A stretch of DNA of 64,000 nucleotides, taken from contig NZ_BONC01000030.1 of the NCBI RefSeq assembly GCF_016862515.1, forward strand, positions 1 through 64,000. The letters are read 5' to 3'. The DNA comes from Asanoa iriomotensis. Its GTDB lineage: Bacteria; Actinomycetota; Actinomycetes; Mycobacteriales; Micromonosporaceae. Below the pieces are notes generated by a model, which saw only the letters and a program-made list of their open reading frames with translations, searched no databases and was not told where the DNA came from. Within the stretch, counting starts at the first letter, position 1, and the number at the start of each line of letters is the position of its first letter. The translations under genes were made by a program, and so were the position numbers. This document shows positions 22,886 to 43,056 of this stretch, piece by piece.

Positions 22886-24790
22886 TCAGGCCAGGGGCGC
22901 CGGGGGTCGCCATGGCCGGTCGCACAGGGCGTGGTCCAGGAACGCGAACACCGCCTCGTACCAGATCCGGACGTTGCCCGGCCTGGTGATGTCGTGCATC
23001 TCGTCGGGGAACTGGAGCAGTCTCGCGGGCCTGCCCAGCCGCCGCAGGTCGTTCAACGCCGTGAGCGCCTGGGTGAACGGCACCACCGGATCCAGGCTTC
23101 CGTGACTGAGCAGCAGGGGCGTGCGCATCTGGTGGGCACGCGAGCGGGGACTCTGCCGCCGGTATGTGTCGGCGGCGTCCAGCGGGTGCCCGAACTCGGC
23201 GTGAAACGTCGGCGCCATGGTGCTGCTGCCGACGAACTCGCCCAGGTCCCAGATGCCGGCGTGGACCACGGCCGCGCGGAACCTGCTCGATCGCGCCACC
23301 AGGTGGTACGCGAGGAAGCCGCCGAACGAACCGCCCATCACCGCGGTGCGGTCGGCGTCGACGTCCGGCCGTGCGGAGACGACATCCACCAGGCTCATGA
23401 CGTCGGCGCCTGGGGTGCCCGCCCAGTCACCCCAGGCACGCTCCGTGAAGGCCTGACCGTAGCCGGTCGACGGGGCCGGATCAGGCATGAGGACGGCGTA
23501 GCCCTTCGCGACGGCCAGCCAGGGACACCACCGCCACGACCAGGCGTTCCAGCTGGCTCGCGGGCCACCGTGCAGCCACACCAGCAGCGGCCGGGGACGG
23601 GTTCCGGCGGGCCGGCACAGCCAGCCGGACACCGGTGCCGAGCCGATGTCCGCGACGACCCGTTCCAGGTGGCCGGGCATCGCGGGATCAGGTGTTGGGC
23701 TGGGCAGCACCTGCGGCGCGCGCCGGCCGGACGGGCCGTGCGGGCGCTGTCGGGTCGGCACGGGCACCCGGTCGACCGCCGAACGGATCGCGTAGATCTC
23801 GTCGCCGCGAGATTGGACATCGGTGAAGCTGCCCGTGCCGGTGAGTCGCCGGACGGCGCCGGTCGCGATCTCCACGCTGAAGACCGGTCTGCTGCCGGCG
23901 CGGTCGGCCGTGAAAAGCAGTGCGTCCGGCGTCCACGCGGCCGGAGTCGGCCAGACGTCGACATCGGTCGCCAGGGGGCGCCCACCGTCGGCCGGGTCGG
24001 CGAGGTCGAACAACCACAGCGTGCCGGACACCGGCGCCCCCGGGCTGCCCGCGCCGGCGGAGCCGCCCGACACCCGGGTGCAGGCGAGCCACCGCCCGTC
24101 CGCGGACAGCAACGGGCTGAAGAAGTCCGCGTCGTCGTGCGGGGCGAGGGGCCGCCATCGCCACGGACTGTCCGTGCCGCCACGCTCCGCGAGGTGCAGA
24201 CCAAGGCGCCGCTGCCGCTGGCCGTCCACGATCGACTCCGCCACGACGCGCAGCGCGTCCTCGGCGACCGCGAAGCCGCCGCGCAGCCGCGCCCCGCACA
24301 GCTCCGGTAACAGGGCCGCGGTCTGGGAAGCGAGAGACAGGCAGGCCAGGCGGATCCGCCTCTGCCCGGCGCCGCGACCATAGTGGACCGTCTCACCCGG
24401 CTCGTAAAGTGCGGCACCCTTGCCCTGGGCCTGTCGCGTCACGTAGAGAACCTGGTCGGCGACGGCCGCGTGTGCGTAGGCCGAGACACCACCCGGTGGG
24501 GCGGCCAGCGGTCGTGCCTCGCCCCGGTCGAGCGACCGCCACCACAGGGCGGTCCGGGGAGGGCCGGTGTCAGCCTCGGCGAGGTACAGCACGCACCGGT
24601 CCGGCAGCGCTGTCACGGCCCACCCCGGAACGGGAGCCGGCTCCCGGTCGCCGGCGTCCATCAGGACGGAACTGCGACCGGCGCCAGGAAGGTCCAGTTC
24701 CAAGGTGTACGACCGTCCGTCCGCCGCGGCAGACAGACCGACCAACCGTGGCAGGGCAAACAAGGACGCGGGCGCCGGCGGATCGGCCAC
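22886..24790 (-). CDS. S9 prolyl-oligopeptidase-like serine peptidase
   Basis: This 634-residue cytoplasmic peptidase has an N-terminal beta-propeller (about 1-380) and an alpha/beta-hydrolase domain. The catalytic Ser is in GGSFGGF (about 487), Asp in HGSLDPVVP (about 567) and His in DEMHDITRPGN (about 597). LLVWLHGGPRASW forms the oxyanion-hole region. It is divergent from the RiPP precursor gene at 24924 and shares its 133-base promoter region, which carries the regulon motif. S9 enzymes remove leaders in some class III lanthipeptide systems (for example FlaP). It is therefore the best candidate for leader or follower cleavage here; that role is inference. Confidence 0.85.
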   Translation of the reverse strand: MADPPAPASLFALPRLVGLSAAADGRSYTLELDLPGAGRSSVLMDAGDREPAPVPGWAVTALPDRCVLYLAEADTGPPRTALWWRSLDRGEARPLAAPPGGVSAYAHAAVADQVLYVTRQAQGKGAALYEPGETVHYGRGAGQRRIRLACLSLASQTAALLPELCGARLRGGFAVAEDALRVVAESIVDGQRQRRLGLHLAERGGTDSPWRWRPLAPHDDADFFSPLLSADGRWLACTRVSGGSAGAGSPGAPVSGTLWLFDLADPADGGRPLATDVDVWPTPAAWTPDALLFTADRAGSRPVFSVEIATGAVRRLTGTGSFTDVQSRGDEIYAIRSAVDRVPVPTRQRPHGPSGRRAPQVLPSPTPDPAMPGHLERVVADIGSAPVSGWLCRPAGTRPRPLLVWLHGGPRASWNAWSWRWCPWLAVAKGYAVLMPDPAPSTGYGQAFTERAWGDWAGTPGADVMSLVDVVSARPDVDADRTAVMGGSFGGFLAYHLVARSSRFRAAVVHAGIWDLGEFVGSSTMAPTFHAEFGHPLDAADTYRRQSPRSRAHQMRTPLLLSHGSLDPVVPFTQALTALNDLRRLGRPARLLQFPDEMHDITRPGNVRIWYEAVFAFLDHALCDRPWRPPAPLA

Positions 24791-24832
24791 GTGCTGCCTC
24801 CTGAGGTGATGCCTCCGAGGCTTCCACTGCCG

Positions 24833-24875
24833 CTACACACGGGATACACGCTCCCGGTGTTCGGATCATGTGTAG
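24833..24875. promoter_or_regulatory. Regulon motif, site A (S9 peptidase / precursor 1)
   Basis: CTACACACGGGATACA (24833-24848) fits the consensus CTACACRYSGGRTACR found at three places in this locus. An inverted GTGTAG half-site follows at 24870-24875, giving a 43-base span. It lies in the divergent promoter of the S9 peptidase and precursor 1 genes. A SARP-type regulator is the likely ligand. Confidence 0.65.
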
Positions 24876-24923
24876 GCGGCGACTCTACGTTCACCTTCCG
24901 ACGCATTCCAGGGAGGTAGCAAG

Positions 24924-25136
24924 ATGACGGTGACAGCGGTTCGAAACGACCAGTTGACCGACAGCGATCCGTTCCTGCTCGAGATCGTGCCGGCCGACGC
25001 GCTGACGGCCTGGATCGACAGCGATGTCGAAGGCCCGGTCGCTCGCACCTGCAACTGCTACGGCAGCTGCGGCGCCACGATCCACCAGACGGGCACGGAA
25101 TGCACCTTCGGCAGCACCACCTGTCTCGAGCGCTGA
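24924..25136 (+). CDS. RiPP precursor peptide 1 (Cys/Thr/Ser-rich core)
   Basis: This 70-residue peptide has an acidic leader (1-40) and a C-terminal core from about 42 that is rich in modifiable residues. There are Cys at 43, 45, 49, 60 and 67, plus Ser and Thr at 42, 48, 52, 56, 58, 61, 64, 65 and 66. The leader contains DPFLLEI, which resembles the F-x-L-D motif read by LanB enzymes. GGGAGG lies nine bases before the ATG. The enzymes downstream are an MNIO oxidase, its partner, a glycosyltransferase and a LanB. So the core may be dehydrated at Ser/Thr, oxidised at Cys and glycosylated. The exact cleavage site is not visible; VAR just before TC is a possible one. Confidence 0.8.
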   Translation: MTVTAVRNDQLTDSDPFLLEIVPADALTAWIDSDVEGPVARTCNCYGSCGATIHQTGTECTFGSTTCLER

Positions 25137-25143
25137 ACACGCG

Positions 25144-25178: not shown

Positions 25179-25221
25179 GGCCCCTGCCTGTCCAGTGACT
25201 GCCGATCCAGAGGCGATGCCG

Positions 25222-26054
25222 ATGCGTTCCCTTTCCGCAGTGCCGGCCCTGGGGGCCGGCCTCGGTTTCCGGACCGAGTTGCACGACCAGATCGTTGCCC
25301 ACCACGACGACATCGACTGGCTCGAGATCATCACCGAGCACTTTCTTCTCAGCCGTCCGCGCGAGGACCGCGTGCTGGGTGAGTTGCGGGAGCTGTTCCC
25401 CATCGTGCCGCACGGCATCGAGATGTCGATCGGCTCTCCCGGTGAAGTGGACCCGCATTACCTCGAGGCGCTGGCCCGTCTCGTCAAGGCGATCGACGCG
25501 CCCTACTTCAGCGATCATCTCTGTTTCACCCGGGCGGGCGGGGTCAGTCTGGGATCGCTGACGCCGTTGCCCCGCTCGACCGCACTGGCCCGGGAGCTCG
25601 CCGGTAAGGCCCAGCGGGTGCAGGAGGCGGTGGGCGTGCCTTTCGTGCTGGAGAACATCACGTACCACGTGGATCTGCGGACCGGCATGTCCGAGGCCGA
25701 GTTCATCGCCGAGTTCTTCGAGCATTGTGACTGCGGACTGTTGCTGGACGTGACGAACCTCTACACCAACGCTGTCAATCACGGCTTCGACCCGCAGCAT
25801 TTCCTCGACGTGATTCCTACCGAGCGCGTCGTGCAGGTCCACCTGGCCGGCGGGATCGAGGAACCCGGTGTTCTGCTCGACTCCCACTCCACGGCGGTGC
25901 CTGAGCCGGTGTGGCGGCTGTTCGACGACGTGCTCCGCCGGGTTTCGCTGAAGGCGGGAATGATCGAGCGGGATCAGGACTTCCCGGAGGACTTCGGCGA
26001 CCTGCTGACCGAGGTGGGCCGGGCCCGCGCCGCGATGCAGCGCCCGGTGCCGGC

Positions 26055-26058
<4 letters not shown>
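25222..26058 (+). CDS. DUF692 multinuclear non-heme iron oxidase (MNIO), MbnB/TglH-like
   Basis: This 278-residue TIM-barrel enzyme belongs to DUF692, whose studied members (MbnB, TglH, ChrH) use two or three iron ions and oxygen to rearrange Cys residues of RiPP precursors. Metal-ligand motifs are visible: WLEIITEHFL, PHGIEMSIG, FSDHLCFT, LENITYHV, LLLDVTNLYTNAVNHG, QVHLAGG and DSHS. The AGAGG at 25209 is well spaced for ATG 25222; ATG 25216 is possible. Its stop overlaps the partner gene start (ATGA). The likely substrate is the Cys-rich core of precursor 1; the chemistry cannot be read from sequence. Confidence 0.88.
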
Positions 26059-26927
<869 letters not shown>

Positions 26928-26946
26928 CCGTGAGGATGTGTTCGTC

Positions 26947-28884
26947 ATGCGCATTTGCGCCGTTGTCAAATATCCGCCGATCGAGGGCGGCGTCAGCGCC
27001 CTGAGCTACCGCGTAGTGATGGCACTCGGCGCCGCCGGGCATCAAGTCAGCGTGGTCACCAACGCGGACGAGGTCGAGGACGACTACCGGATGTGGATGC
27101 GGCCGGAGGACCGCGCGCGACTGGAGGCGTCCTTCCCCGGCGGCGGAAGTGTCTCGCTGGTCCCCACGTCGGGCCTGGGCCGCAAGTTCGCCGCGTACAT
27201 CCCGGCGAGCAAGCCGTTCGTCACCAAACTCGCCAGCCTGGCCACGGAGGAGATCCGGCGGATCGACGCGGACGTCGTCTACTCCTACTATCTGGAGCCC
27301 TACGGGCTGGCCGCGCATCTCGCGGCGCAGTGGACCGGCGTGCCGCACGTCGTGCAGCACGCGGGCAGCGACCGCACCCGGCTCATGGCCCATCCGGAAC
27401 TGTCGCTGGCATACCGGGAGGTGCTGCGGCGAGCGGACCTCGTGGTGGCCCGGCCGGGAACGATCGAGGGATTCGGGGTGGATCCCGCGCGGGTGACCAA
27501 TCTGGGACCGCGACGACTGGCCTCCTTCCCCCAAGCCGACACGCCCGCGCTCGACATCGACGCCACGATCGCCGAGCTGGCGGCCGCCGGCCATCCCTGG
27601 GTCACCAACACCGACCCGTTGCCGAAAGACCGGGCGACGTTCGGTATCTACGGGAAGGTCAGCCAGTTCAAGGGCAGCTACGACCTGGTCGACGCGCTGG
27701 CCAAGTGCCGCGCCGCCGGCCACTCGTTCAACCTCGTCGTCATGGCCGGAGGCATGTGGCGGGAACGCTTCCTCGAAGCGGCGCGGCACGCCGGCCTCGG
27801 CGACCGCACCTGGACGCTGCCGTTCCTCCCACACTGGCGGGTGCCGGAGTTCCTGCGCAGCCTCACCGCCGCCTGTTTCCTGGAACGCCGATTCCCCATC
27901 GCGATCCACACCCCGGGCGTGCCGGCCGAAGTGCTCACCGTCGGCACCTGTCTGGTGATGTCCCGGGAGATCGCGGAGAAGCAGCGGTTCCGCGATGAAC
28001 TCCAGCAGGGGCGGAACTGTTACGTCGTCGAGGATCCGACCGACGCCGCGGAACTGGCCGGCGTCCTCGGGCGGATCGCCGCCGACCCGGCGGAGGCGCT
28101 GCAGGTCGGCCGGGAAGGGCAGCGGCTCGTGGCGGACGTCGGGACTGACGTCGAACTGGCGGCCGACTACGAGCGGCTGTTCCGGCGGGCCGCCGACCTC
28201 CGTGCCGACCGGGACAGCCGCACGGCCGTGGCGCCGGTCCCCGACGGCCAGTGGGACCTTCTTCGCCGGTTCATGCCGGCGACCATGGCGGTGCTGGGCG
28301 AATCGCGGGACGAGGTCCTGGCGCAGGTTGCCGCGGACGGCCACCCGAGTGCGGCACACCGCACCTACGCGGGCGGTGAGGCCGCCGTCGCGTGGATCAC
28401 GCAGCAGGCCGGGACGCTGCCGGAGGGCGCCCCGGGGGCGGCCGCCTTCGAGCTGGATCTGTTGTGGACCCGCCTCGACCTGGAGAGCCACGACGGCGCC
28501 CCGCTGTTCCCACGCCGTGGTGCGGGTGCGCTCGTCCTTTCCGATGTGGTCGGCCCCGGCTCCCGGGTTCCGGTCGCGGCCAGTGGCATTCGGATCCGAC
28601 GCCACCGCGGTGACATCGAGTCCGTCCTCGCCGACCTGCGAAACGGATCCACGCCCCCCGCGTCGACCGGCGAGGAGACGCTGTTCGTCTTCCTCAAGCG
28701 CGGTGACCTCGACGGTGCGGTGCGACGCATCAACCCGGCCACCCGGTCGCTGTTGCAGCTCTGCGACGGCCGCACCCCGGTGACGGAGATCGCGCAGCGG
28801 CTCGGCGGTGAGTACGGCGTCAGCTACGACGAGGTCGAGCACATGGTGCTGGAGCTGGCCAACGAGCGGCTGGTGCAGATGTAG
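26947..28884 (+). CDS. GT4-type glycosyltransferase fused to MNIO-partner-like and PqqD-like domains
   Basis: This 645-residue protein has an N-terminal GT-B glycosyltransferase (residues about 1-415). Its start is KYPPIEGGVSALSYRV, the acceptor-side loop of GT4 enzymes, and its donor half shows GIYGKVSQFKGSYDLVDAL and TPGVPAEVLTVGTCLVMS. Residues about 435-510 (WDLLRRFMPATMAVLGESRD to AAFELDLLWTRLDLE) resemble the helical domain of the MNIO partner encoded just upstream. The last 75 residues (FLKRGDLDGAVRRINPATRS, then LLQLCDGRTPVTEIAQRL) are PqqD-like, a RiPP recognition element. The architecture implies leader-guided glycosylation of precursor 1. GAGGA lies ten bases before ATG 26947. Donor sugar unknown. 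Confidence 0.78.
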   Translation: MRICAVVKYPPIEGGVSALSYRVVMALGAAGHQVSVVTNADEVEDDYRMWMRPEDRARLEASFPGGGSVSLVPTSGLGRKFAAYIPASKPFVTKLASLATEEIRRIDADVVYSYYLEPYGLAAHLAAQWTGVPHVVQHAGSDRTRLMAHPELSLAYREVLRRADLVVARPGTIEGFGVDPARVTNLGPRRLASFPQADTPALDIDATIAELAAAGHPWVTNTDPLPKDRATFGIYGKVSQFKGSYDLVDALAKCRAAGHSFNLVVMAGGMWRERFLEAARHAGLGDRTWTLPFLPHWRVPEFLRSLTAACFLERRFPIAIHTPGVPAEVLTVGTCLVMSREIAEKQRFRDELQQGRNCYVVEDPTDAAELAGVLGRIAADPAEALQVGREGQRLVADVGTDVELAADYERLFRRAADLRADRDSRTAVAPVPDGQWDLLRRFMPATMAVLGESRDEVLAQVAADGHPSAAHRTYAGGEAAVAWITQQAGTLPEGAPGAAAFELDLLWTRLDLESHDGAPLFPRRGAGALVLSDVVGPGSRVPVAASGIRIRRHRGDIESVLADLRNGSTPPASTGEETLFVFLKRGDLDGAVRRINPATRSLLQLCDGRTPVTEIAQRLGGEYGVSYDEVEHMVLELANERLVQM

Positions 28885-28929: not shown

Positions 28930-31900
28930 GTGGGTGAGTCACTGTCGGAACCGGATTTCCGCTGCGCGGACGTCCTCCTGGTGCGCGTCGCCGCGCGGCC
29001 ACTCGGATGGGGTCACGCGACCACCCCGCGGGACGGTGATGACGAGACCCTGCTGGACCGGATCAGGGAGCTGGCCGGCGACCCGGTGCTCCGCGAGGCG
29101 GTCGCGGTCGCCAGTTCCAGCCTGTCGAGGGCGTTGCACGCCGCCCTGACCGGGCCGACATCACCCAAACCGAAGGATCTGCGGCGACTGCTCCTGAGCC
29201 TGGAGTCGTACCGGATGCGGATGTCGGCCAGGGCCACACCGTTCGGGTTGTTCGCCGGCGTGGCGAAGGCACGATTCGACGAGACCGGTGCGGCTGTGCT
29301 GAACGGCGGTCACCGCACCCGCACCCGGCCGGACATGGGATGGCTGGCCGGCCTGGTCGCGACCCTGGAGACCGACCCGGCCGTGCTGCCCCGGTTGCGT
29401 GTGGTGACGAACGCGTCGTATGTCGTGCGCGGCGGGCGGCTCGAGTTGATGGACCGGGCCGGCCCGGCGCCGCAGGACGCCGACCCGGAACCGCTCACCT
29501 CGCTGCGGTGCACGCCGGCCGCGCAAGCGGCTCTCGATGCGGCCGCCACCCCGATCGGCGTTGGCGACCTCGCCGAGCTCCTCGCCGCCAAGTGGCCCGG
29601 CGCATCCTCGGGCCGATCGCTGCAACTGCTCAGCGGGCTGGTCCGGCACAGGTTCCTCCTCACCGACCTGAGGCCCCCGTCCGATTGCGCGGAGCCCATC
29701 GGGCACGTGCTGGACCGGCTCGGTGAGCACCCCGCCGCGGTGGAGCTCGGCGCGATCAGGAGTGCGATGGTCGAGTACGACCGGCTGGCACCCGGCGAAG
29801 GTCTCCCGGTCCTGGAGCGGTTGACCGAGCGGATGCGCGTGGCGCGGCCGGCCGGCGACGTGCTCCACGTCGACCTTGCGGTGCGTGCCGAGGTCCGCAT
29901 CCCGACGCTGGTCGCGCGGGAGTTGGAGAAGGCGATGGAGACCCTGTGGCGGCTGTCTCCGCGTCAGCCCGGAAGCCCGCGCCTGCGCGGTTATCACCGC
30001 GATTTCCTGCAGCGGTACGGCACAGGCCGGCCGGTGCCGTTGACCGAACTGCTGTCCGAGGAGATCGGCCTCGGCCTGCCCGACACGTACCGGCGCGACG
30101 GCGGGCTGCGCTCGAAGCACCAGCTGTCCACCCTCGATCCCGACGTCGAGCGGAACCGCCTGCTCGCCCGGGTGGTGGCGGACGCCGTCGCGGACCAGCG
30201 ACGGGAGGTGTGCCTGGACGACGACCTGGTCGACCGGCTGGCCGGGGAACCAGCGGCGGGGGAGCGGCCACACCCCTCGATCGAGGTCAAGGCGCGGCTG
30301 ATGGCGCCGTCGATGGCGGCGATGACAGCGGGCGACTTCCTGCTGGCCTTCGGCCCGTACGTGGGATCCAGTCCGGCCGGTGCCGTCTCCAGCCGGTTCG
30401 CGACCCTGCTCTCCGGGAACGAGGAGATGGGCCGCGTGGTGCAGGGGGCCGACGAGGAACTCGGCGACGAGATCCGCGCGGCCCTCGTCTACCGGCCCAC
30501 GTCCGACCGGACGAACAACATATTGTCCTCGCCTCGCTGGCTGGCACACCGCATTCCGGTCGGGGTCGGCACGTTCGAGTCGTCGGTGGTCGATCTGCTC
30601 CCCGACGACCTCGCGGTCACCGCGACGAGCGACCGGCTGGTCCTGGTCTCTCGCCGGCTCGGCCGGCGCGTCCGGCCGATCCGCTTCAACGTCGCCAACC
30701 TGAGCCGGTCCGGGACCGGCATGGTCCGGTTCCTCGACGACATCGGCCGCGAAGGGCTCTGCCCCGTGCAGGGATGGAACTGGGGCGCCATGCGCGACGT
30801 CCCGTTCCTGCCCCGGATCCGGCGGGGGAGGACCGTCCTCGCCCTCGCCACCTGGCGCATCGACGACACGCTCGCCGGACCGAACGCGGCCCGGCCGGAC
30901 TGGTCGCGGCGACTCGCCGCCTGGCGCGAGGCGGCCGGTGTGCCGCGGCGGATCGTCGTCGCCGAAGGGGATCGGGTGCTGACCCTGGACCTGGACGAGT
31001 CGTCGCACCGCGAGCTGTTCCGCCGGTCATGCGAGCGGCGTGGCGACTTCACCGTCCGGGAGGTGCTTGACGATTCCTTCGTGGACGGATGGCTCCGATC
31101 CCCGGACGGGCCGCACCACTGCGAGCTCGTCGTCCCGATGGTGCGGCGGGAACCGGCCCCGCCCGACCCGGTTGCCGTCCCGCCCAGCACGGCGACGCAG
31201 GTCCGGGACCGCGACCACCTGCACCTGCCGGGTGGGGAATGGTTGTACGCGAAGATCTACACGGCCGACGGCAGGCTCACCGAGCTCGCCCGCGACCACC
31301 TTCCGGCGCTGCTGGAGCGGCTCGCTTCCGGTGCGCCGCCGCGGTGGTTCTTCATCCGGTATGCCGACCCGGGGGCTCACCTGCGGCTCCGTATCTGGGG
31401 GTCGCCGACCGACCTGTGGTCCGACTCACTGCCGAGGCTGCGCGACTGGGTCCTCGGGCTGCGGGAAGCGGGTCTGGTCAGTCACCTGGCGTTGGACAGC
31501 TACGACCCGGAGGTCGAGCGGTACGGTGGGCCACCGCTCGTCGAGGCGGCGGAGCGTGTCTTCCACGCCGACAGTGAAGCCGTGATCCGGATGTTGCGGG
31601 TGCTCGAGCCGCAACGCTCCACCGCGGATCCCGTCCTGGTCGGCGCATTGAGTGTCCTGCACATGTTCGCCGCGCTGGGCCAGGAGGACGAGGCGGCGGA
31701 CTGGCTGGCGCGCACCGGAGCCAACGGTGACTACCGCCGGGCGTTCACCGCACGACGCGAACAGGCACTTCGCCTGGCCGACCCCGGCGGCGCCTGGACC
31801 GAGCTGCGGCAGCTTCCTGGGGGTGACGACCTGCTGGCGGCCTGGGAGCGGCGGCGCCCTGCCCTGGCGCGGTACCGGTCCGCGCTGCGCTGCGCGGGCG

Positions 31901-34098: not shown

Positions 34099-34245
34099 AT
34101 GTCCGACGAGCACACCGCTGACGAGTTCGTGTTGGATCTGCGCGTGGAGACCGAGCCGGCGCTGGTGTCGGGCCAGCAGATGACCGGCACCGGCACCGCG
34201 CCGGCCGTCTTCATGACGGGCACCGGAACGGCACCGGCCAGCTGA
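34099..34245 (+). CDS. RiPP precursor peptide 2, FxLD leader and duplicated Thr-rich core
   Basis: This 48-residue peptide starts at ATG 34099 behind AGGAAGGA. The acidic leader contains DEFVLDL, the F-x-L-D motif of LanB-processed precursors. The core is two copies of MTGTGTAPA (28-36 and 39-47), joined by VF and ending in Ser 48. It has no Cys, so lanthionine rings are impossible. Thr 29, 31, 33, 40, 42 and 44 are the likely dehydration targets. A linear Dhb-rich peptide, perhaps two copies released by cleavage, is the simplest inferred product. A LanB gene lies convergent just downstream. Confidence 0.8.
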   Translation: MSDEHTADEFVLDLRVETEPALVSGQQMTGTGTAPAVFMTGTGTAPAS

Positions 34246-34293: not shown

Positions 34294-34298
34294 GCGCG

Positions 34299-37200
34299 TC
34301 AACGGCGGCCGAACCGCTCGCGCTCGGCGCGGGCGATGACCACGTTGCGGGCCACGGCGTGGATCTTGCCCTCGAGGGTCACGTCGGTGCCGAAGACGCG
34401 GTTGACATGCATGTGCGCCAGGCTCGCGGCGACCGTCTCCATGGTGTCGCACCCGCGCAGCGCGCATCCGTACCCGGCGACGGCGGGCCGTCGCGAGCGC
34501 CACGCCGCCACCAGTTCCGGACCGCCCGGGCGCCGCGCCAGTTCGTCCCAGTCGCCACCTGGATCGGCCAGCAGGAGTGCCTCCCGGCGCCGCGCGGTGA
34601 ACGCCTCGCGGTGCTGCTGCCTGGTCCCGGTACGCGCGAGCCAGCCGGGAAGGTCGTCGGGCCCGCCGAGCGCGGCGAGCAGGTCGAGGACACTCAGCGC
34701 CCCGATGAGGACGCGGTCCGCCGTCGACGCGTGGGAGTCGAGCACGCGGAGCATCGCGACCGCCGACACGCTGTCGGCGTGGAACGCCCGTTCGGCCTCG
34801 GCGAGCACGTCCGGGCCGCCGTAGCGTTCGATCTCCGGGTCGTAGCTGTCCAGCACGACCTGGCCGAGCAGGCCCGAGCGGCGCAGGCCGGCGGCCCACT
34901 CACGAAGCGCCGGCAGCGCAGCGGCCCACAGCGCCTCCGGCTCGCCGTGCATGCGCAGCCTCAGATGGGGGAGCGGGTCCGCGTACCGCACGAAGAACCA
35001 GCGGTCCACGACCCCCGGTCCGACGAGGTGGAGCAGGCCGTCGACGTGGTCGCGAAGCAGTTCCGGCGCGCGTCTCGCGCCCGTGTAGAGCTTCGCGTAC
35101 AGCCACTCCCCACCGGGCAGGTGGATCTCGTCACGGGTGCGGACCGCGGGCCGGATCCGCGGTGCTCCACCTGGGTCGTCGCCGTTCGCCTTCCGGGACA
35201 CCAGCGGCACGACGATTTCGCAACGGTGGGGCCCGTCCGGACCGCGCAACCATCCGTCGCTGTCGTGGTCACCCACGACCTCCTGGACGAGCAGGTCGTC
35301 GCCGCGCTCGCATTCACGGCGGAACAGGAGCCGGTGCAGCGGGTCGTCGAGATCGAGCGGCATGCACTGGTCGCCGTCGACGAGCAGCACACGATCGGGC
35401 ACCTGCGCCGCGTCGCGCCACCGCGCCAGTCGGTCCAGCCAGGGTCCGGCCACCGCGCCGTCGGCGAGCAGCGCCTCGTCGACCTGCCACCGCGCCGGTG
35501 AGAGGACGGTGCGCCCGTGGGAGACCCGTGGCAGAAAGGGCGCACTGCGTAGCGGTCCCCAGTCCCAGTTCCGCAGGCCGCAGGTGCCTTCGTGGCCGAG
35601 GTCGGCGAGGAAGCGCGCGACGCCGGGGGCGAGAACGGTCGGGTTGAGGACGTTGAACACCGCGGGTACGACCTCCCGGCCCAGCCGCGACGAGTGGAGC
35701 ACGAGCCGGTCCGGCGTAGCCGTCACGGCGAGGTCGGACGGCGGCAGGTCGACGACCGTGGGGTCGAACGACCCGACACCCACCGGTAGGCGGTGATCGA
35801 GCCAGCGGGGTGAGGTCAACACGTTGCCCAGCCGGCCCACCCGGGGCTGGTACGCCAAGGCGGCCACGACGGCCGGGACGTCCGTACCGTTGATGTGCCG
35901 GATCAGCTTTGCCAGGTCCTCTCCGACGTCGCCGAGAAGGTGGGCGAAGCGGCCCAGCATCGCGCCCGCCCGACTCGAACCGAGGTACGGCCCGAGCACA
36001 AGCAGGAAATCGCCGTCACGCATCGCCGTGACCGATCGCGCCATGAGGTGCGCGTAGATCTCCACCGACGCCGGCGGACCTCCGCGCGCATCGTCGAACC
36101 CCTCGCGGTCGAGTCGCGTCATCAGGGCGTCGTCGAGCACGACCTCCCGCTCGCCACGGGCCGCGGCATCGGCGACGAGCCGGGCCAGTATCCGGTCACG
36201 ACGCGGGTCGTCGCCGGTCGACGCCCGTCGTGGTTCGCGGCTCGGACGCTCGCCCGGGCGCCGGTACGGGGCGGGCAGGCCGAGGCCGCACTCCTCGGAG
36301 ACGAGCTCGGTCAGGGCGACGGCCCGGCCCGTGCCGTACCGCTCCAGGAACGCGGTGTGGTAGTCACGCAGCCACGGCTGGCCGGTCCGGCGCGGCGACA
36401 GGCGCCACAGCGCCTCGGCCGCCTGCTCGATCTCGCGGGCGACCAACGCCGGGATTCCGGCGTCCACGTCGAGCACGAGGTCCACCTGGAGAGGATGGTT
36501 CGTCGGCTGCACCTCGCACATCTCGGTCCGGAGCGACTCGAACGCGGGTTGCCCCTGCCCGACCGGAAGGCCGTCGTAGGCCGCGATGTCCCGTCGGATC
36601 GCGCGCAACCGGGCGACCACGGGGTGACCGGGGAGCCGTTCCAGCAGGTAGCCGACCGGGTCGGCGCAGTCGAACGGCGGACGTAGGTCGGTGAGCAGGA
36701 AGCCGTGCACGACGAGGCCGCGGATCATCGCGGCGACGGTCTCCTCGTCGACGCCCGGAAACCCGAGCCGCACCGCCGAGACGAGGGCGTGGTGCGTGAT
36801 CGGAGCGACCGCCGCCCGCAGCGCGGCGTCGACGGGGGGAGTGTGACGCAGCGATACGACTCGGCGTTGTGTGTCGTTGTCGTCGACTCCCGCGTCGGAC
36901 AGGTCGGTCAGCTCGATCCGTCCGCCCCGCACGGTGCCCGCCTCGTTGGCGACCAACCGGAGCCCGGTCAACACGGCCGGTTCGGTCTCCAGGCGGCTCG
37001 CCAGCGCCAGCAACCAGCCGGCGTCGGGACGCGTGTGCGTCCGGTGGTCAAGCCCGAGCCGTGCCTGCCCGCCGGGCACGAACCGTGCGGGCGCCACGCC
37101 GGCGAACAAACCGAACGGGGTCGTGCGCGCGCCCATCCGGAGGCGGTAACGCGCGACGCTCACCGCGAGCCGGCGCAGATCCTTCACCCGCGTCGGCCGT

Positions 37201-37433
37201 TCGCCCGCCAGTGCGGACCGCAACGCGTCGGACAGGCTCGGGCTGGCGACCGCGATTGCCTCGCGCAGGATGGGATCGGCACTCAGGTCACGGACGCGCG
37301 CCAACCAGGCCGCCGCGTCGTCGGTGTCGACCTCGGCTCCGGTCCGGATCCCGTCACCGTGCGGGTTCCCGTACGGATGAGCCGCTGCGCGCAGCAACAG
37401 CACGTCGGCGGACCTGAAGCGCGGTTCGGTCAC
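34299..37433 (-). CDS. Full-length LanB-type dehydratase 2
   Basis: This 1044-residue paralogue of the 28930 enzyme shows the same landmarks. They are RMGARTTPFGLFAGV (about 97, tRNA-Glu site residues R-x-x-x-R-x-T), WFFVRYADPLPHLRLRMHG in the elimination domain, and SLAHMHVNRVFG near the end. Both the glutamylation and elimination halves are present, so it should be a complete Ser/Thr dehydratase. GTG 37433 has GGAAAGGA upstream; longer frames to 38021 run antisense-like through the ABC gene. It follows the ABC gene by 20 bases and is convergent with precursor 2, its likely substrate. Confidence 0.92.
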   Translation of the reverse strand: MTEPRFRSADVLLLRAAAHPYGNPHGDGIRTGAEVDTDDAAAWLARVRDLSADPILREAIAVASPSLSDALRSALAGERPTRVKDLRRLAVSVARYRLRMGARTTPFGLFAGVAPARFVPGGQARLGLDHRTHTRPDAGWLLALASRLETEPAVLTGLRLVANEAGTVRGGRIELTDLSDAGVDDNDTQRRVVSLRHTPPVDAALRAAVAPITHHALVSAVRLGFPGVDEETVAAMIRGLVVHGFLLTDLRPPFDCADPVGYLLERLPGHPVVARLRAIRRDIAAYDGLPVGQGQPAFESLRTEMCEVQPTNHPLQVDLVLDVDAGIPALVAREIEQAAEALWRLSPRRTGQPWLRDYHTAFLERYGTGRAVALTELVSEECGLGLPAPYRRPGERPSREPRRASTGDDPRRDRILARLVADAAARGEREVVLDDALMTRLDREGFDDARGGPPASVEIYAHLMARSVTAMRDGDFLLVLGPYLGSSRAGAMLGRFAHLLGDVGEDLAKLIRHINGTDVPAVVAALAYQPRVGRLGNVLTSPRWLDHRLPVGVGSFDPTVVDLPPSDLAVTATPDRLVLHSSRLGREVVPAVFNVLNPTVLAPGVARFLADLGHEGTCGLRNWDWGPLRSAPFLPRVSHGRTVLSPARWQVDEALLADGAVAGPWLDRLARWRDAAQVPDRVLLVDGDQCMPLDLDDPLHRLLFRRECERGDDLLVQEVVGDHDSDGWLRGPDGPHRCEIVVPLVSRKANGDDPGGAPRIRPAVRTRDEIHLPGGEWLYAKLYTGARRAPELLRDHVDGLLHLVGPGVVDRWFFVRYADPLPHLRLRMHGEPEALWAAALPALREWAAGLRRSGLLGQVVLDSYDPEIERYGGPDVLAEAERAFHADSVSAVAMLRVLDSHASTADRVLIGALSVLDLLAALGGPDDLPGWLARTGTRQQHREAFTARRREALLLADPGGDWDELARRPGGPELVAAWRSRRPAVAGYGCALRGCDTMETVAASLAHMHVNRVFGTDVTLEGKIHAVARNVVIARAERERFGRR

Positions 37434-37453: not shown

Positions 37454-39331
37454 TCATGTTCGGTATCCGGTGGCCTGCAGGGCGAACAGCTCCGCGTAGC
37501 GGCCACCGAGCGCGCTCAGTTCGGCGTGGGTGCCCTGTTCGACGATCTGTCCGTTGTGGAGCACGTAGATGCGGTCGGCGTGCCTGATGTTGGCCAGCCG
37601 GTGCGTGATGAGCACGGTGATGCGGCGCGCGGCATCCCTGCGCAGGGCCGCGAACAGCGCCTGCTCGGCGCGCGCGTCGAGCGCCGCGGACGGTTCGTCG
37701 CAGATCAGCAGCGGCGCGTCCCGGAACAGCGCACGAGCCATGGCCAGGCGTTGCCACTGCCCGCCGGACAGGTCCATGCCCCCTTCGAACTGGCGCGACA
37801 GCAGCGTCTGGTAGCCGGCCGGCAGAGCGAGGATCATGTCGTGCGCGCCGGCCGCACGCGCCGCGGCGTGTGTCGCGGCCTCGTCGGGCGTGCGGTCGCT
37901 GCCGAGGCGGATGTTGCCCTCGGCGGTGAACGGCCAGTGCCAGTAGTTCTGGCTGACCATTCCCACGTGCCGCCACACCTGTCCCGGCTCGAAGCCGCCC
38001 AGCGGCAGGTCGTTCCAGCACACCGTGCCGGAGTCCGGTTGGTACAGACCGGCGATGAGCCTGGCCAGGCTCGTCTTGCCCGAACCGTTCTCACCGACCA
38101 GTGCGATCGTCTGTCCACGACGGATGGTGAACGTGACGCCGGCGAGGGCCGGAGCGGGGGTGTTCGGGTAGCGGAGCGCGGCGTCGCGGACGCTGATCCG
38201 CTCCGGCGGGCGCATCGTCCCGACCGCGGTCACCGTGCGGACGCGGGCGCGTGCGCGGACGCAGAAGTCGGTGTAGTCCTCGAAGTAGAGTCCCTCCTCG
38301 TACACCCGGTTGATCGTGTTGATGGCGAGGGTCGACGACTGGCGGGCGGCCTGCACGGCCAGCACGGCCGCCCCGGCCGCGGCCAGCGGCAGGGCGTGCC
38401 AGCCGACCAGTGCACCGATCACGGCGTAGACACCGAGCGTCGCCGCGCCGGAGAGGACGCTGCCCAGCGCCCGGGCCGCGGCCTGGCGTCGCGCCACGTC
38501 CAGCTCGGCCGCGATTTCCGTCTCCGCCGTGGCGACGTACTCGCCGAGCAGGTACCGGCGCATGGTGAGCGCGCGCAGTTCGGCCGCGGTCTCGCGCAGG
38601 GCCATGAGGTCGGCGAGCATCCACAACCGTCGCCGCCGGCTGGTGCGGGCATGGATGCTCAGGTACGACAGGCGTGCCGCGCGCAGTGCCGCCCAGAATC
38701 CCGGCACGCTGGCCAGCATGAGCGCCAGCACCAGCAGGGGATGCAGGATGAGCAGGGCGGTGGCGGCGGCCACCAGGCCGAGGGAGCCGGCGAGCAGGTC
38801 GACCGTCGCGCGCACCAGGTGCTGCACCGACTGCGCGCCGCCCTTGCGGGCGCGTTCCAGCTCGTCGCAGAACCGCGGGTCGTCATAGGCGGCGAGGTCG
38901 ACGCTGGTGGTCAGTTCGAACAGCCGGCGCTCGGCCAGGGTCAGCACCCGCGGCTCGAGCCGGGCCAGTGCCCACCCGGCGCCGAGGGTCAGCCCCGACC
39001 GCACCGCGACGGCCACGGCGACGGCGACGAGCTGTGGAAGCGCGGCGCGCAACCGGTCCGGTGTCGCACCCTCGGCCAACAGGGCCTGCAACGCGGCCCG
39101 CGTCGCCAGAAGCGCCCACGCGGTCGCCGCGCCCGCGGCAAGGTTGAGCACCGCCGCCGCTGCCGTGTCCCAGGCGCTCGCCCGCCACGCCATCGCGGCG
39201 GTTCGCGCCACGATCACCGGCAACCGCCAGAGGACGGTGGCCAGGCGCGCCTTGACCAGTGACCGGTGATGGATCTGCCACCACCCGTCGCGTAACGCCG
39301 GCAGTCTCCTGGCGGTCGGCGCGCTAACCAC
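37454..39331 (-). CDS. ABC transporter, fused permease and ATPase
   Basis: This 625-residue half-transporter has about six transmembrane helices (about 40-340) and a C-terminal ATPase. The ATPase shows Walker A GENGSGKTS, signature MDLSGGQWQRLAMARALF, Walker B LLICDEPSAALD and H-loop LITHRL. It would work as a dimer and is of the LanT/exporter type, but it has no C39 peptidase domain, so leader removal must be done by another enzyme. GTG 39331 overlaps the SARP stop by eight bases and LanB 2 follows, giving a SARP-ABC-LanB operon. Export of the module 2 product, or immunity, is the likely job. Confidence 0.88.
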   Translation of the reverse strand: MVSAPTARRLPALRDGWWQIHHRSLVKARLATVLWRLPVIVARTAAMAWRASAWDTAAAAVLNLAAGAATAWALLATRAALQALLAEGATPDRLRAALPQLVAVAVAVAVRSGLTLGAGWALARLEPRVLTLAERRLFELTTSVDLAAYDDPRFCDELERARKGGAQSVQHLVRATVDLLAGSLGLVAAATALLILHPLLVLALMLASVPGFWAALRAARLSYLSIHARTSRRRRLWMLADLMALRETAAELRALTMRRYLLGEYVATAETEIAAELDVARRQAAARALGSVLSGAATLGVYAVIGALVGWHALPLAAAGAAVLAVQAARQSSTLAINTINRVYEEGLYFEDYTDFCVRARARVRTVTAVGTMRPPERISVRDAALRYPNTPAPALAGVTFTIRRGQTIALVGENGSGKTSLARLIAGLYQPDSGTVCWNDLPLGGFEPGQVWRHVGMVSQNYWHWPFTAEGNIRLGSDRTPDEAATHAAARAAGAHDMILALPAGYQTLLSRQFEGGMDLSGGQWQRLAMARALFRDAPLLICDEPSAALDARAEQALFAALRRDAARRITVLITHRLANIRHADRIYVLHNGQIVEQGTHAELSALGGRYAELFALQATGYRT

Positions 39332-40115
39332 GGGAGCCTGTCAGCCAGGCGCTCAGGTCGCCGGTGGCCAGCGATGGGTCGCGGCGGAGGATGGCGCCCT
39401 GCACGCCGGCCAGCTCTGGCCCGGGTTCGAGGCCCAACTCGGCGGCGAGGAGCCGGCGCACGTCGCGGTAGGCCTCCAGCGCCTCGGCCACCCGTCCGGA
39501 TCGGTAGAGCGCGAGCATGAGCTGCAGGTAGAGCCGCTCACACATGGGATCCGCCGCCACGCCGGCGCGCAGTTCGCCGACGAGTTCCTCGTTCTGGCCG
39601 AGGCGCAGCCGGGCGTCGGTCCAGTCCCGGAGCAACGACCGGTGCTGCTCCTCCAGGCATTCGACCCACTGCTCGACCTCCGGGGTGGACGGAAGGTCGG
39701 CCAGCGGCCTGCCCCGCCACAGCCGGGCCGCCTGCCCGAGCAATGCGACGCCGCGACGCAGGTCTCCGTCGCGTAGCTCCGCGCGGCCGCGGTCGGCGAG
39801 GCGGCGGTAGCGCAGGGCGTCCAGGCAGTCGTCCTCGACGTTCAGCACGTAGCCCGCCGCGCCGGTGAGGATCTTGGCTTTCGAACGGCCCGCGGTCAGG
39901 AGGCCGCGGATCGAGCAGACGTAGGTGTAGAGGTTCGCGGCGGCTGACTGCGGCGGTCGCTCACCCCACAGCTCGCGCATGATCCGGTCGGTGGAGACGG
40001 GCTGGTCGGCGTGGGCGAGCAGGACGGCCAGCACGATCTTCGGTTTCGTACGACGCAGGGTGTACGCGGAACCGCCGCTGCGCATCTGGAGGCGGCCCAA
40101 CACATAGAAGTCCAC
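39324..40115 (-). CDS. SARP-family transcriptional activator (short form)
   Basis: This 263-residue regulator has an OmpR-like winged-helix domain (about 1-95: MDFYVLGRLQMRSGGSAYTL, then PVSTDRIMRELWGERPPQSA) and a bacterial transcriptional activation domain (about 97-245, ending ELGLEPGPELAGVQGAI). Such SARPs activate biosynthetic clusters by binding direct repeats near -35. The GTG at 40115 has AAGG upstream. It is the first gene of the SARP-ABC-LanB 2 operon and is divergent from a larger SARP. The regulon motif (site C) lies between them, so this protein or its neighbour probably reads that motif. Confidence 0.88.
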   Translation of the reverse strand: MDFYVLGRLQMRSGGSAYTLRRTKPKIVLAVLLAHADQPVSTDRIMRELWGERPPQSAAANLYTYVCSIRGLLTAGRSKAKILTGAAGYVLNVEDDCLDALRYRRLADRGRAELRDGDLRRGVALLGQAARLWRGRPLADLPSTPEVEQWVECLEEQHRSLLRDWTDARLRLGQNEELVGELRAGVAADPMCERLYLQLMLALYRSGRVAEALEAYRDVRRLLAAELGLEPGPELAGVQGAILRRDPSLATGDLSAWLTGSRG

Positions 40116-40167
40116 AGATACCTTGCCCTTCCGGTCGGTGCGGATGTGACGGGCGCGACATCGCTAC

Positions 40168-40185: not shown

Positions 40186-40275
40186 CAGAGCGCCCGTTCT
40201 CTTCGCGTCCTTGCGGCGTCCTTACGACGTCCTCGACGTGCGCCCGCCGGACGGGGTTAGGAGTTGACCGGTCGT

Positions 40276-43056
40276 ATGGATTTCCGCCTGCTCGGTCCGA
40301 TCGAGGTATGGGCAGCCGGCAACCGGGTTCCGCTCCACGGTGCACGCCAGGAGCGCATCCTCGCCGCGCTGCTTCTCGACGCCGACCGTCCGGTGTCGAT
40401 ACCGCGACTGGTGGACATCGTCTGGGACGAAGGGCCACCGGCCACCGCCCGCCGTCAGGTGCAGGACGTCGTGTCCCGGCTGCGATCGGTCCTCACCGCC
40501 GCCGGCGCCCCCGCCGACACGATCCGCGCCGCGCGTGAGGCCTACCAGCTGACGCTCACCGGTCACCGGTACGACGAGCGCAGCTTCGGCGAGCTGGCGG
40601 CCCGGGCCGAGGACCTCGGTGCGCGAGATCCCGAAGGTGCCGTCGCGCTCCTGGACGAGGCGCTGGCGCTGTGGCGCGGGGTGCCGCTGGCCGGGCTGGA
40701 GGGCGCCGGCCTGCGCGACGCGGTCACGGCGTTGAACGCCCGGCGCCTCGCGGTCGCGGAGCGGCGGTGGGAACTGGAGCTGCAGCTCGGCCGGCATGAA
40801 CACGCGGCTGAGGAGTTGTCCAGCCTGCTGTCGGCTCATCCGTACCGTGAGCGGATCGCGATCCTGCTCATGGCCGCACTGGCCGGGCAGGGGCGGCGAG
40901 CCGAGGCATTGTCCGTCTATCACCAGGTTCGCCGGACATTGTCCGAGGAGCTGGGCGTCGAACCCGGCCCGGAGCTGCAGGCCGCGCACCGCGCGCTGCT
41001 GCGTGGCGACCGGGCCGAGTCGGCGGAGCCCGACCGGAGAACCGCCGCGCCGGCCGGCGGCCGATCCGGCCCGCCTGCGCAGCTTCCTGCCGGCGTGCCC
41101 TCGTTCGCCGGTCGGGCCGACGCCCTCGCCTGGCTCGACGGCCTGTTGCGGCCGGACCAGCGGGTCGGTGCGGTGTCCGGCACCGCCGGCGTCGGCAAGA
41201 CCACCCTGGCCGTGCACTGGGCGCATCGGGTGTCCGACCAGTTTCCCGACGGCACGTTGTATGTCAACCTCCGCGGCTTCGACCCCGGCGGCCGGCCGCT
41301 GGATCCCGCCGACGCGGTGCGCGACTTCCTCGAGGCGTTCGGAATTCCCGCCGGCCGCATCCCGCAGGGCCTCGATGCCCGGGCGGCGCAGTACCGCGGC
41401 CTCATCCAGGGCCGCCGGATGCTCGTCGTGTTGGACAACGCCCGCGACGCCGACCAGGTCCGCCCGCTGCTGCCCGGCACGCACACCGCTGTCGTCGTCG
41501 TCACCAGTCGCAACCGGTTGACCGGGCTGGTCGTGGCCGACGGGGCGCGCCCGTTCCATCTCGATCTGATGTCGCCGACCGAGTCATACGACCTGCTGAC
41601 CGGTCGGCTCGGCCCGGATCCGTTGTGGTGCGAGCCGGAGGTGGCGCAGCGGATCGTCACCGTGTGCACCGGGTTGCCGCTCGCGCTGGCGATCGTCGCC
41701 GCACGCGCCCAGCAGACCGGGTTCCCGCTGGCGGCGGTGGCCGCCGAGCTCGGCGGCACCAGCCGGCCACTGGACGCGCTGGACGGCGGGGACGCCACGA
41801 CCCGGCTCCGGGCGGTCCTCTCGTTGTCCTACCGTGCCCTGACGCCGGCAGCCGCCCGCCTGTTCCGCCTGCTCGGCCTGCATCCGGGTGGCACGGTCGG
41901 GCTCCCTGCGGCGGCCAGCCTGGCCGGCGTACCCTCACCTGTCGCGCGCGACCTGCTGACCGAACTCACCCGCGCCTCGCTGCTCGCCGAACCCGACCCG
42001 CGTCGCTACGCACTGCACGACCTGCTGCGCGCGTACGCCACGGAGCTCGCGTGCGACGAGGAGACCCCGAGCGCGCGGAAAGCCGCGTTCACCCGGCTTC
42101 TCGACCACTACCTGCACACCGCGATCGAGGCCGATCGTCAGCTCAGCCCGTCGCGCAAACCCTGCGCGATCCCGTTCGGCGAGCCGGCGCCGGGCACCAC
42201 GGTCGGCCAGGTCGACGATCCCGTTTCGTGGTTCACGGTGGAGCGCTCCAACCTGTTGGCCGTGCTCGATGGCGCCGGCGACTCCGACGTGGCGAAGCAG
42301 GCCTGGCAGCTCGCGTGGGCGGCCGACTCCGCCCTGGAACGCCAGGGCCACTGGTCGGATCTCGCGCATGCGTGGCGCCTGGCACTCTCCATCGCGACGG
42401 CGCTGCCCGACCTGCGGGGGCAGGCGTTCGCGCAACGCCGGCTGGCCCAGGCGTGCACACTGCTCGGGCGCGACGCCGAGGCCGACGCCCACCTGGGCCA
42501 GGCGTTGCGGCTCTACGAGGACGCCGCCGACCACGCCGGTCAGGCCATCGTCCACCATTCACTGTCCTGCGTGTACGAGCAGCGGGACGACTACAAGCGG
42601 GCACTGCACCACGCCGAACACGCATTGTCGTGCGCGCTGTCGAGCGGCGACGAGAGCCAGCAGGCCCTCGCGCTCAACGCCATCGGCTGGTGCCACGCCC
42701 AACTCGGCCAGCACGCCGAGGCGTTGGCCCACTGCCAGCGCGCCCTGCTGCTCCTGGACCCGAACGACCACCGGGCCCAGGCGGACACGTGGGACTCCAT
42801 CGGCTTCGCCTGCCACCACCTCGACCGCCACGACGAGGCGGTGCACGCCTACCAGCAGGCTCTGACGCTGGCCCGCCAGGCCGGAGCCCGCCACCTCGAG
42901 GGAACCGTCCTGACCCACCTGGGCGACACCCACCTCGCGGCGGGAGACCCCACGGCGGCCCGGGCCGTTTGGAAGCCCGCATTGGACATCCTGGCCAGCA
43001 TCGACGCGACCGTCGCCGACCAGCTTCGCGACCGACTCGGTCGAGCACGGCTATGA
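40276..43056 (+). CDS. AfsR-like large SARP regulator (winged helix-BTAD-NB-ARC-TPR)
   Basis: This 926-residue regulator starts MDFRLLGPIEVWAAGNRVPL, a SARP winged helix (1-95). A BTAD domain follows (about 97-245, ending ELGVEPGPELQAAHRALL). Next is an NB-ARC ATPase with P-loop GTAGVGKTT (about 303) and RRMLVVLDNARDADQVRPLL as Walker B. The C-terminus is TPR repeats (about 690-915), such as HAEALAHCQRALLLLDPNDH. ATG 40276 is preferred; a TTG at 40264 lies too close to its AGGAG. It is divergent from the short SARP with site C between them, and is likely the signal-sensing master activator of the RiPP locus. Confidence 0.88.
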   Translation: MDFRLLGPIEVWAAGNRVPLHGARQERILAALLLDADRPVSIPRLVDIVWDEGPPATARRQVQDVVSRLRSVLTAAGAPADTIRAAREAYQLTLTGHRYDERSFGELAARAEDLGARDPEGAVALLDEALALWRGVPLAGLEGAGLRDAVTALNARRLAVAERRWELELQLGRHEHAAEELSSLLSAHPYRERIAILLMAALAGQGRRAEALSVYHQVRRTLSEELGVEPGPELQAAHRALLRGDRAESAEPDRRTAAPAGGRSGPPAQLPAGVPSFAGRADALAWLDGLLRPDQRVGAVSGTAGVGKTTLAVHWAHRVSDQFPDGTLYVNLRGFDPGGRPLDPADAVRDFLEAFGIPAGRIPQGLDARAAQYRGLIQGRRMLVVLDNARDADQVRPLLPGTHTAVVVVTSRNRLTGLVVADGARPFHLDLMSPTESYDLLTGRLGPDPLWCEPEVAQRIVTVCTGLPLALAIVAARAQQTGFPLAAVAAELGGTSRPLDALDGGDATTRLRAVLSLSYRALTPAAARLFRLLGLHPGGTVGLPAAASLAGVPSPVARDLLTELTRASLLAEPDPRRYALHDLLRAYATELACDEETPSARKAAFTRLLDHYLHTAIEADRQLSPSRKPCAIPFGEPAPGTTVGQVDDPVSWFTVERSNLLAVLDGAGDSDVAKQAWQLAWAADSALERQGHWSDLAHAWRLALSIATALPDLRGQAFAQRRLAQACTLLGRDAEADAHLGQALRLYEDAADHAGQAIVHHSLSCVYEQRDDYKRALHHAEHALSCALSSGDESQQALALNAIGWCHAQLGQHAEALAHCQRALLLLDPNDHRAQADTWDSIGFACHHLDRHDEAVHAYQQALTLARQAGARHLEGTVLTHLGDTHLAAGDPTAARAVWKPALDILASIDATVADQLRDRLGRARL

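Follow-up and report, generated by a model that had tools for sequence, protein, structure and literature searches.

Does the gene cassette at positions 22,886-43,056 of Asanoa iriomotensis contig 30 (NZ_BONC01000030.1) encode one modified peptide or two, and which chemistry do its enzymes bring together? The window analysed here, the whole stretch of 64,000 nucleotides from the start of this contig, contains the entire cassette (20 kb, 13 genes); its host, a soil actinomycete of the genus Asanoa, has an 8.57-Mb genome. We consider it probable that the cassette is a chimera for ribosomally synthesized and post-translationally modified peptides (RiPPs), giving two products under shared control: a Cys-oxidised, probably glycosylated peptide and a linear dehydrated one. 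We observed the gene content, the movement of the cassette as one unit, the separate kinship of its two halves, the catalytic residues of the LanB dehydratases and of the multinuclear non-heme iron-dependent oxidative enzyme (MNIO), and the predicted folds of the MNIO partner and the glycosyltransferase (GT). From these we infer the substrate of each enzyme, the sugar and the atom carrying it, the order of steps and the chemistry as a whole. The genes are, in order:

22,886-24,790 (-): S9 (prolyl-oligopeptidase family) peptidase, candidate leader peptidase; PF00326, 6e-40
24,924-25,136 (+): precursor 1, 70 aa, leader motif PFLLEIV, core TCNCYGSC...; sequence resembling a ribosome-binding site (RBS), homologues in G002 and A. 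ishikariensis
25,216-26,058 (+): MNIO (DUF692) iron enzyme; PF05114, 2e-80
26,055-26,927 (+): MNIO partner (PME-type 2 / ApyI-like), a helical domain followed by a domain resembling a RiPP precursor recognition element (RRE); fold model, weak ApyI match
26,947-28,884 (+): family 4 glycosyltransferase (GT4) with C-terminal PqqD-like (RRE) domain; Pfam, fold model
28,930-32,058 (+): LanB1, full-length glutamyl-tRNA-type dehydratase; PF04738 and PF14028
32,061-32,780 (-): S-adenosylmethionine (SAM) methyltransferase, daptide-methyltransferase-like below cut-off; PF13649, 1e-13; NF041820, 62 bits (cut-off 175)
32,773-33,963 (-): major facilitator superfamily (MFS) exporter; PF07690, 3e-20
34,099-34,245 (+): precursor 2, 48 aa, leader DEFVLDLRVE, MTGTGTAPA twice, no Cys; RBS-like sequence, equivalents in relatives
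34,299-37,433 (-): LanB2, full-length dehydratase; PF04738 and PF14028
37,454-39,331 (-): ATP-binding cassette (ABC) exporter; PF00005, 3e-28
39,324-40,115 (-): short activator of the Streptomyces antibiotic regulatory protein (SARP) type; PF03704, 8e-39
40,264-43,056 (+): AfsR-type SARP (BTAD, NB-ARC, TPR); PF03704, PF00931, PF13424

Domains were called with Pfam and NCBIfam, and several open reading frame (ORF) starts were corrected by the beginnings of the domains. According to these profiles the original prediction had named the genes correctly: two precursors, two LanBs, an MNIO with partner, the GT-PqqD, the exporters, the S9 peptidase and the SARPs. Neither precursor found a match in Pfam or NCBIfam; precursor 2 is flanked by two genes on the opposite strand.

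In the scheme that we propose, the RRE-like domains in the GT and in the MNIO partner would bind precursor 1 at its PFLLEIV leader. Cys residues in the TCNCYGSC... core would be oxidised by the MNIO, and a sugar would be attached by the GT4, tethered through its RRE. LanB1 would most likely add dehydrations to this peptide. LanB2 would bind precursor 2 via its F-x-L-D leader and dehydrate the Thr residues of the core by the glutamyl-tRNA route; as this peptide has no Cys and the cassette no LanC, the product would remain a short linear dehydrobutyrine (Dhb) peptide, perhaps methylated. The S9 peptidase may remove the leaders, perhaps after Pro, with export by the ABC and MFS proteins. S9 prolyl-oligopeptidases are known to cut lanthipeptide leaders, and a possible clue that fits such removal is GPVA[RL], conserved directly ahead of TCNC in the three Asanoa precursor-1 peptides, together with a Pro beside each repeat of the A. 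ishikariensis precursor 2. The two modules and two likely products of the original prediction are supported, with Cys chemistry, glycosylation and dehydration as plausible reactions, and a linear dehydrated second product fits a Cys-free precursor 2 with a LanB-type leader.

The cassette moves as one unit

We found the cassette gene set again in two other Asanoa genomes, G002 and A. ishikariensis. The DNA homology to G002 begins at window position 22,885, at the stop of the S9 gene, and is collinear up to 41,028 with ~91-93% identity; positions 41,053-43,038 match, at 90% DNA identity, a second G002 SARP gene that lies next door in inverted, tail-to-tail orientation. Beyond this, the ~20 kb that border the G002 stretch to the left and to the right yielded no homology to the window flanks. 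As no homology was found in the flanks while the unit matches, the cassette occupies different chromosomal places in the two genomes: it moves as one unit. The AfsR-type SARP gene appears to have recombined in one lineage, because its last part matches the next-door SARP of G002. The tail-to-tail AfsR-type SARPs of that genome (L156:16555-19587, and a neighbour that runs into L009) share out the window protein, one having its N-terminal and the other its C-terminal part.

A. ishikariensis carries 12 of the 13 cassette genes in rearranged order. Identities are 70% for the MNIO, 61% for the methyltransferase, 59% for the GT, 46% for the S9 peptidase (whose gene adjoins precursor 1 there), 43% for the partner and a weak 29% for the MFS exporter; two LanBs, both SARPs, precursor 1 and precursor 2 are present as well, the latter found by eye. 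Co-inheritance at this divergence argues that both halves belong together. The original prediction had proposed a database search for the combination of LanB, MNIO and GT-PqqD: the set recurs in Asanoa, and elsewhere the MNIO-GT pair was encountered with no LanB found.

The LanB half and the question of LanC

As predicted, the two LanBs are full-length paralogues (PF04738 at 4e-182 and 3e-192, with the elimination domain PF14028 kept in each); they are 53% identical. The structure 5ehk (MibB) was matched at 2e-136 by LanB1 and 5e-153 by LanB2, and both 9g04 and NisB were also matched. LanB1 keeps the catalytic residues aligned with NisB R83, R87, T89, D121, D299, R464, R784, R786, R826 and H961, and LanB2 holds identical residues in these columns. 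No other LanB was found in the genome.

LanBs of the cassette type were found solely in the three Asanoa genomes and, in fragments, in G010, the single member of a second genus. In a midpoint-rooted LanB tree of 24 rows, into which only the 14 of the loci L098-L121 with a long ORF on the match strand were entered, the eight cassette-type rows from these four genomes are set apart with 99/99. The LanBs of highest identity outside this clade (~41%) are those of G005 and G101, which adjoin Cys-containing precursors with FDLDL leaders and an ABC exporter that shares 42-43% identity with its cassette counterpart.

All 16 non-cassette LanBs in the tree have a LanC within 300 bases, as checked in their own genomes including the 14 added; this also applies to L111, L114 and L119, which neighbour the cassette clade in the tree. 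Beside the eight cassette-type LanBs no LanC turned up, nor was one found in the window locus or in the 69%-complete genome of G010. The simplest history is therefore that the cassette LanBs descend from class I lanthipeptide dehydratases and that LanC was lost. One LanC-like gene was found in the 8.57-Mb genome, on contig 53. It covers profile positions 4-338, with one match at 3-338 each in G001, G002, G003 and G004, and G004 has no LanB at 1e-40. The encoded protein scores best as a class IV LanL, far under the cut-off, and retains WCHG and CCG motifs. This is probably a genus-wide gene with a job of its own, not one dedicated to the cassette. The predicted absence of a dedicated LanC is supported; as to a LanC elsewhere that acts on precursor 1, which the original prediction had named as a finding that would speak against it, the apparent counterparts in G001-G004 make this less likely, yet the motifs are kept. 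An ordinary lanthipeptide cluster that lost its LanC in an assembly gap was rejected, as the cassette lies whole in the window, the nearest LanC-like gene of G002 is ~235 kb away, and A. ishikariensis has no LanC on the contig with the cluster.

Precursor 2 is Cys-free in the window and in three other versions, and is 83% identical in G002. Its leader reads EFVLDL, EFALDL or ELALDV in three of the four versions and LLHLDE in A. ishikariensis; EFVLDL resembles the FDLDL leaders beside the LanC-linked LanBs of G005 and G101. The core is repeated in three versions: two copies of MTGTGTAPA in the window, an almost identical pair in G002 and two of IHETTLA in A. ishikariensis; G010 has one copy. 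In A. ishikariensis and G010 the equivalents directly adjoin a LanB.

The MNIO-GT4 half

An alignment of 31 MNIOs paired with the GT has 21 invariant positions, among them H66, H101, E146, D178, N181, H209, D222, H224, E251 and D253 of the window protein, His, Glu, Asp and Asn residues that are presumably of the metal-binding kind. The window MNIO stays under the cut-offs of all five NCBIfam MNIO models listed (for example NF050167, 237 bits with a cut-off of 310; NF003818, 201 with 360; NF050151, 105 with 400). A tree separates the 31 GT-linked MNIOs, with 100/100, from 29 MNIOs drawn from the same family and order. When five plasmid-borne MNIOs, three of them beside DUF2282 genes, were added as bufferin-type references and the 29 background MNIOs thinned to the first 10, 29 of the 31 still grouped, weakly (83/87), and a single origin was seen in 11% of 200 bootstrap trees.

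The partner has no Pfam match to DUF2063 and a weak match to ApyI (NF050149, 23 bits; cut-off 200). Its model, with a mean predicted local distance difference test (pLDDT) score of 86.6, matched TglI (8hi7, 8hci) and NGO1945 (3dee) as the only PDB entries at E<=0.001. Pfam and the fold agree in assigning the GT to GT4. The model (pLDDT 91.3) shows a GT-B part and a helical stretch, with a C-terminal strand/helix domain as expected of an RRE, and PF05402 recognises the PqqD domain with 25.0 bits (cut-off 23.4). A Pfam NGO1945 C-terminal domain was seen in two of 38 aligned GTs.

We scanned the GTDB genome collection with the GT alignment and kept the best 80 of 83 relatives, corresponding to 79 loci ordered roughly, not strictly, by score; neighbouring genes were called by tblastn at 1e-4 in flanks of up to 10 kb, many of the contigs being short. 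An MNIO lies in the fetched stretch of 42 of the 79 loci, within 2 kb of the GT in 39 and on the same strand in 37 of these. Among the first-listed loci (L013-L050) the MNIO stands beside the GT in 35 of 38, two of the other three being contigs of <5 kb, and it was seen in seven of the remaining 41. Elsewhere MNIO genes are sparse, with 38 matches in 61 related genomes. The group is patchy, since the GT was found in four of these 61 (1e-20) and in one of 150 genomes of the order, the window's own (1e-40, at most eight candidates scored per genome). Of the plasmid records, 354 have an MNIO match at 1e-5 and one a GT match at 1e-40; the latter has no gene annotated as MNIO within 6 kb. NCBIfam yielded only matches below cut-off for ten relatives.

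By record title, with genera placed in their usual phyla, the paired loci belong to Actinomycetota, Myxococcota, Acidobacteriota, Chloroflexota, Pseudomonadota, Bacillota, Patescibacteria and Tectomicrobia, and many are metagenome bins. Of the 79 loci, only the A. ishikariensis one has a LanB match (1e-4). Because the MNIO-partner-GT half is scattered and LanB was otherwise not found there, the Asanoa combination looks like a graft on another pathway. This wider group, the main point about the locus, is absent from the original prediction. In the Patescibacteria loci L055, L059, L070 and L073 the GT4 gene opposes the MNIO on the other strand, with small Cys-rich ORFs near some; the GT4 of L070 and L073 has ~400 residues. 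Asparagine-synthase-type amidotransferases, called by N-terminal sequence, lie near 14 of the 41 LanB-less pairs (e.g. L015:11988-13721, L022:5893-7662), and two calls checked with Pfam were both confirmed.

Precursor 1 is 91% identical in G002, with a ratio of nonsynonymous to synonymous substitution rates (dN/dS) of 0.25, and 43% identical over 49 aa in A. ishikariensis. It has five Cys, nine Ser/Thr in its core of 29 residues and a C-terminus ...CLER, lacking a C-terminal Asp; the Asanoa leader motif is PFLLE[IT]V. Short Cys-rich precursors adjoin MNIO-GT pairs in at least 22 loci, and an MNIO beside this GT4 subfamily with such a precursor is likewise what the window locus holds. By eye we chose 25 LanB-less precursors from 22 of the 41 LanB-less pair loci, leaving aside near-copies (L042), the additional L026 copies and the candidates from L019, L029, L055, L070 and L073; in the LanB-less loci outside this set no candidate was accepted. 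The Thermoanaerobaculia locus (L026:6681-13664) has about nine Cys-rich SGG...CxGC peptides around one MNIO and two GT4 genes.

Closely spaced Cys are the constant feature of the 25 peptides. Six have no Ser, Thr, Tyr or Asn between the first and the last Cys, and the L066 core (FCGCGCGCGCGA) has none at all, so that Cys is the sole side-chain sugar acceptor possible; the core of the Nocardia L017 precursor, too, is poor in or free of hydroxyl residues. Since some cores offer no other acceptor between the Cys, sulfur may be the atom that takes the sugar. On this basis we tentatively put forward a wider reading: the MNIO-GT4 pair may mark an undescribed RiPP class spread across about eight phylum-level groups, in which the MNIO would oxidise CxxC-type Cys and the GT4 would glycosylate that sulfur. 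In Asanoa it might be fused with LanC-free LanB chemistry to give an oxidised, glycosylated and dehydrated peptide plus a linear Dhb peptide with a repeated core. Of the parts of the cassette, the MNIO-GT group has the best prospect of proving to be a new class.

Just outside the cassette, the window encodes a protein with weak M6/M64 metallopeptidase similarity (20,976-22,661). Elsewhere it encodes a DarH/BtrH-like acyltransferase (60,295-61,293; 171 bits, cut-off 300) and a large protein whose subtilase-like part resembles, far under the curated cut-off, autotransporter serine peptidases (6,037-8,673). The neighbour of the acyltransferase shows weak similarity to bleomycin acetyltransferase (28 bits), possibly another secondary-metabolite fragment.

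Rival readings and known systems

The chimeric two-product reading has to be weighed against three others. Both LanBs, the MNIO and the GT might all act on precursor 1, with precursor 2 as an accessory regulator or immunity peptide. The presence of both halves in three Asanoa genomes and the many Ser/Thr of the precursor 1 core would suit such a single product, but precursor 2 has a LanB-type leader, its Thr-containing core is repeated in most versions and its equivalents sit directly beside LanB in two genomes; we regard one product as rather unlikely. The GT, whose best structural matches are BshA and MshA, could instead make a sugar-containing small molecule as these do and leave the peptide alone. 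Against this stand the PqqD-like domain fused to the window GT, the position of its gene between the MNIO partner and LanB1, and the recurrent pairing with an MNIO, and we consider it quite unlikely. A true class I lanthipeptide would arise if LanB1 dehydrated precursor 1 and the LanC-like protein of contig 53, or spontaneous addition, closed thioether rings. Five Cys among many Thr and Ser and the retained WCHG and CCG motifs speak for rings; however, the LanC-like gene lies on another contig and has apparent counterparts in four genomes, one of them without LanB at 1e-40, and related precursors with no LanB in sight are likewise Cys-rich. We hold this, too, to be quite unlikely.

Several points weigh against the two-product reading itself and its extension to a wider class. 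The ABC exporter gene was not found in A. ishikariensis, and neither MNIO nor GT was found in G010 (69% complete, 1,080 contigs). The dN/dS of precursor 2 against G002 is 0.91, by itself no proof of coding. The loss of LanC, as opposed to its gain elsewhere, is a parsimony argument, the tree being midpoint-rooted. PqqD was detected at E<=0.01 in only 14 of the 38 aligned GTs. At GT residues 320-328 (window 27,904-27,930) the first Glu of EX7E, the usual GT4 motif, appears by eye to be replaced, beside a His that is invariant in the 38 GTs, and donor use is therefore uncertain. Ser and Thr make up on average 0.29 of the precursor-1 cores (n=3) and 0.00-0.30, mean 0.15, of those of the LanB-less relatives (n=25). 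As these ranges overlap, the share was rejected as proof that LanB1 acts on precursor 1, a pairing that rests on gene order.

The leaders of the wider MNIO-GT group, finally, are of several kinds. A [FY]xx[DE] leader like that of precursor 1 was counted by eye in only 11 of the 22 loci: P[FY]LFERV in Sorangium and two Nocardia; FELEQL, FEFEEL and kin with CxGCxxC cores in Nonomuraea, Spongiactinospora, Acidobacteriota and Rhodococcus; L033 and the Thermoanaerobaculia locus complete the number. Five others (Acetobacteraceae, Streptomyces, Kitasatospora and others) combine FELRAMKP with CIVC-type cores, four a VEW motif with CxC cores, and L024 and L066 each stand alone. We rejected the notion that the precursor-1 leader is a mere LanB F-x-L-D box, because the similar P[FY]LFE occurs in the Sorangium and Nocardia loci with no LanB found.

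New peptide modifications are increasingly being traced to MNIO chemistry. The recurrence of an MNIO together with a GT and recognisable precursors makes a possible RiPP class with sulfur glycosylation directly accessible to study. The two-product reading would make the Asanoa cassette a clear case of two RiPP pathways in one unit, with LanB but without LanC, in which the formation of linear dehydropeptides and the order of steps can be tested.

With class I lanthipeptides (MibB/NisB type) the cassette shares full-length LanBs, the F-x-L-D leader of precursor 2 and an ABC exporter; it differs in having no dedicated LanC, one Cys-free precursor, and an MNIO and a GT in addition. A glycocin was rejected, as these are defined by a GT2 S/O-glycosyltransferase whereas the cassette enzyme is a GT4 by Pfam and fold. 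Aminopyruvatides (ApyHI), according to the available text of PMC11002830, also combine an MNIO with an RRE partner, and the cassette partner is weakly ApyI-like; this assignment was dismissed because NF050151 gives 105 bits with a cut-off of 400, precursor 1 has no C-terminal Asp, and no P450 or radical SAM enzyme is among the cassette genes. Pearlins (TglB with TglHI), as treated in the same text, likewise unite a LanB-family protein, an MNIO and a TglI-type partner in one cluster, but TglB, a short LanB, appends an amino acid (PMC11002830), whereas both cassette LanBs carry the elimination domain PF14028. Bufferins and captophorins resemble the cassette in an MNIO with an RRE-bearing partner and a Cys-rich substrate, as far as the available text of PMC12452194 and PMC12668002 describes them. 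In the thiooxazoles of PMC12668002 each modified Cys loses 4 H. Their MNIO has a DUF2063 partner; the cassette partner has no Pfam match to DUF2063 but the fold of NGO1945 (3dee) and TglI, neither cassette precursor has a Pfam match, and a GT and LanBs are present. Bufferin/captophorin was rejected, the MNIO missing the BufB and HvfB cut-offs (NF050167, NF003818) and lying outside the bufferin-type rows of the tree.

In the open-access text that we searched, a scope that excludes subscription papers, supplements and figures, neither an MNIO-glycosyltransferase RiPP group nor this cassette was found to be described, and none of the known systems compared here was seen to possess the gene set. 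No description of an MNIO-GT pairing was seen in the available text of PMC12710340, PMC13174530, PMC8776678 and PMC7794033, and 'glycosyl' is not used in the main text of PMC12452194, which recently surveyed the substrates and partners of MNIOs. Fusions of an RRE with a glycosyltransferase were flagged in 2020 as a sign of possible new RiPP clusters (RRE-Finder; PMC7470986). The main text of that work leaves DUF692 unmentioned, whereas the GT4-RRE protein of Asanoa is tied to an MNIO and to Cys-rich precursors.

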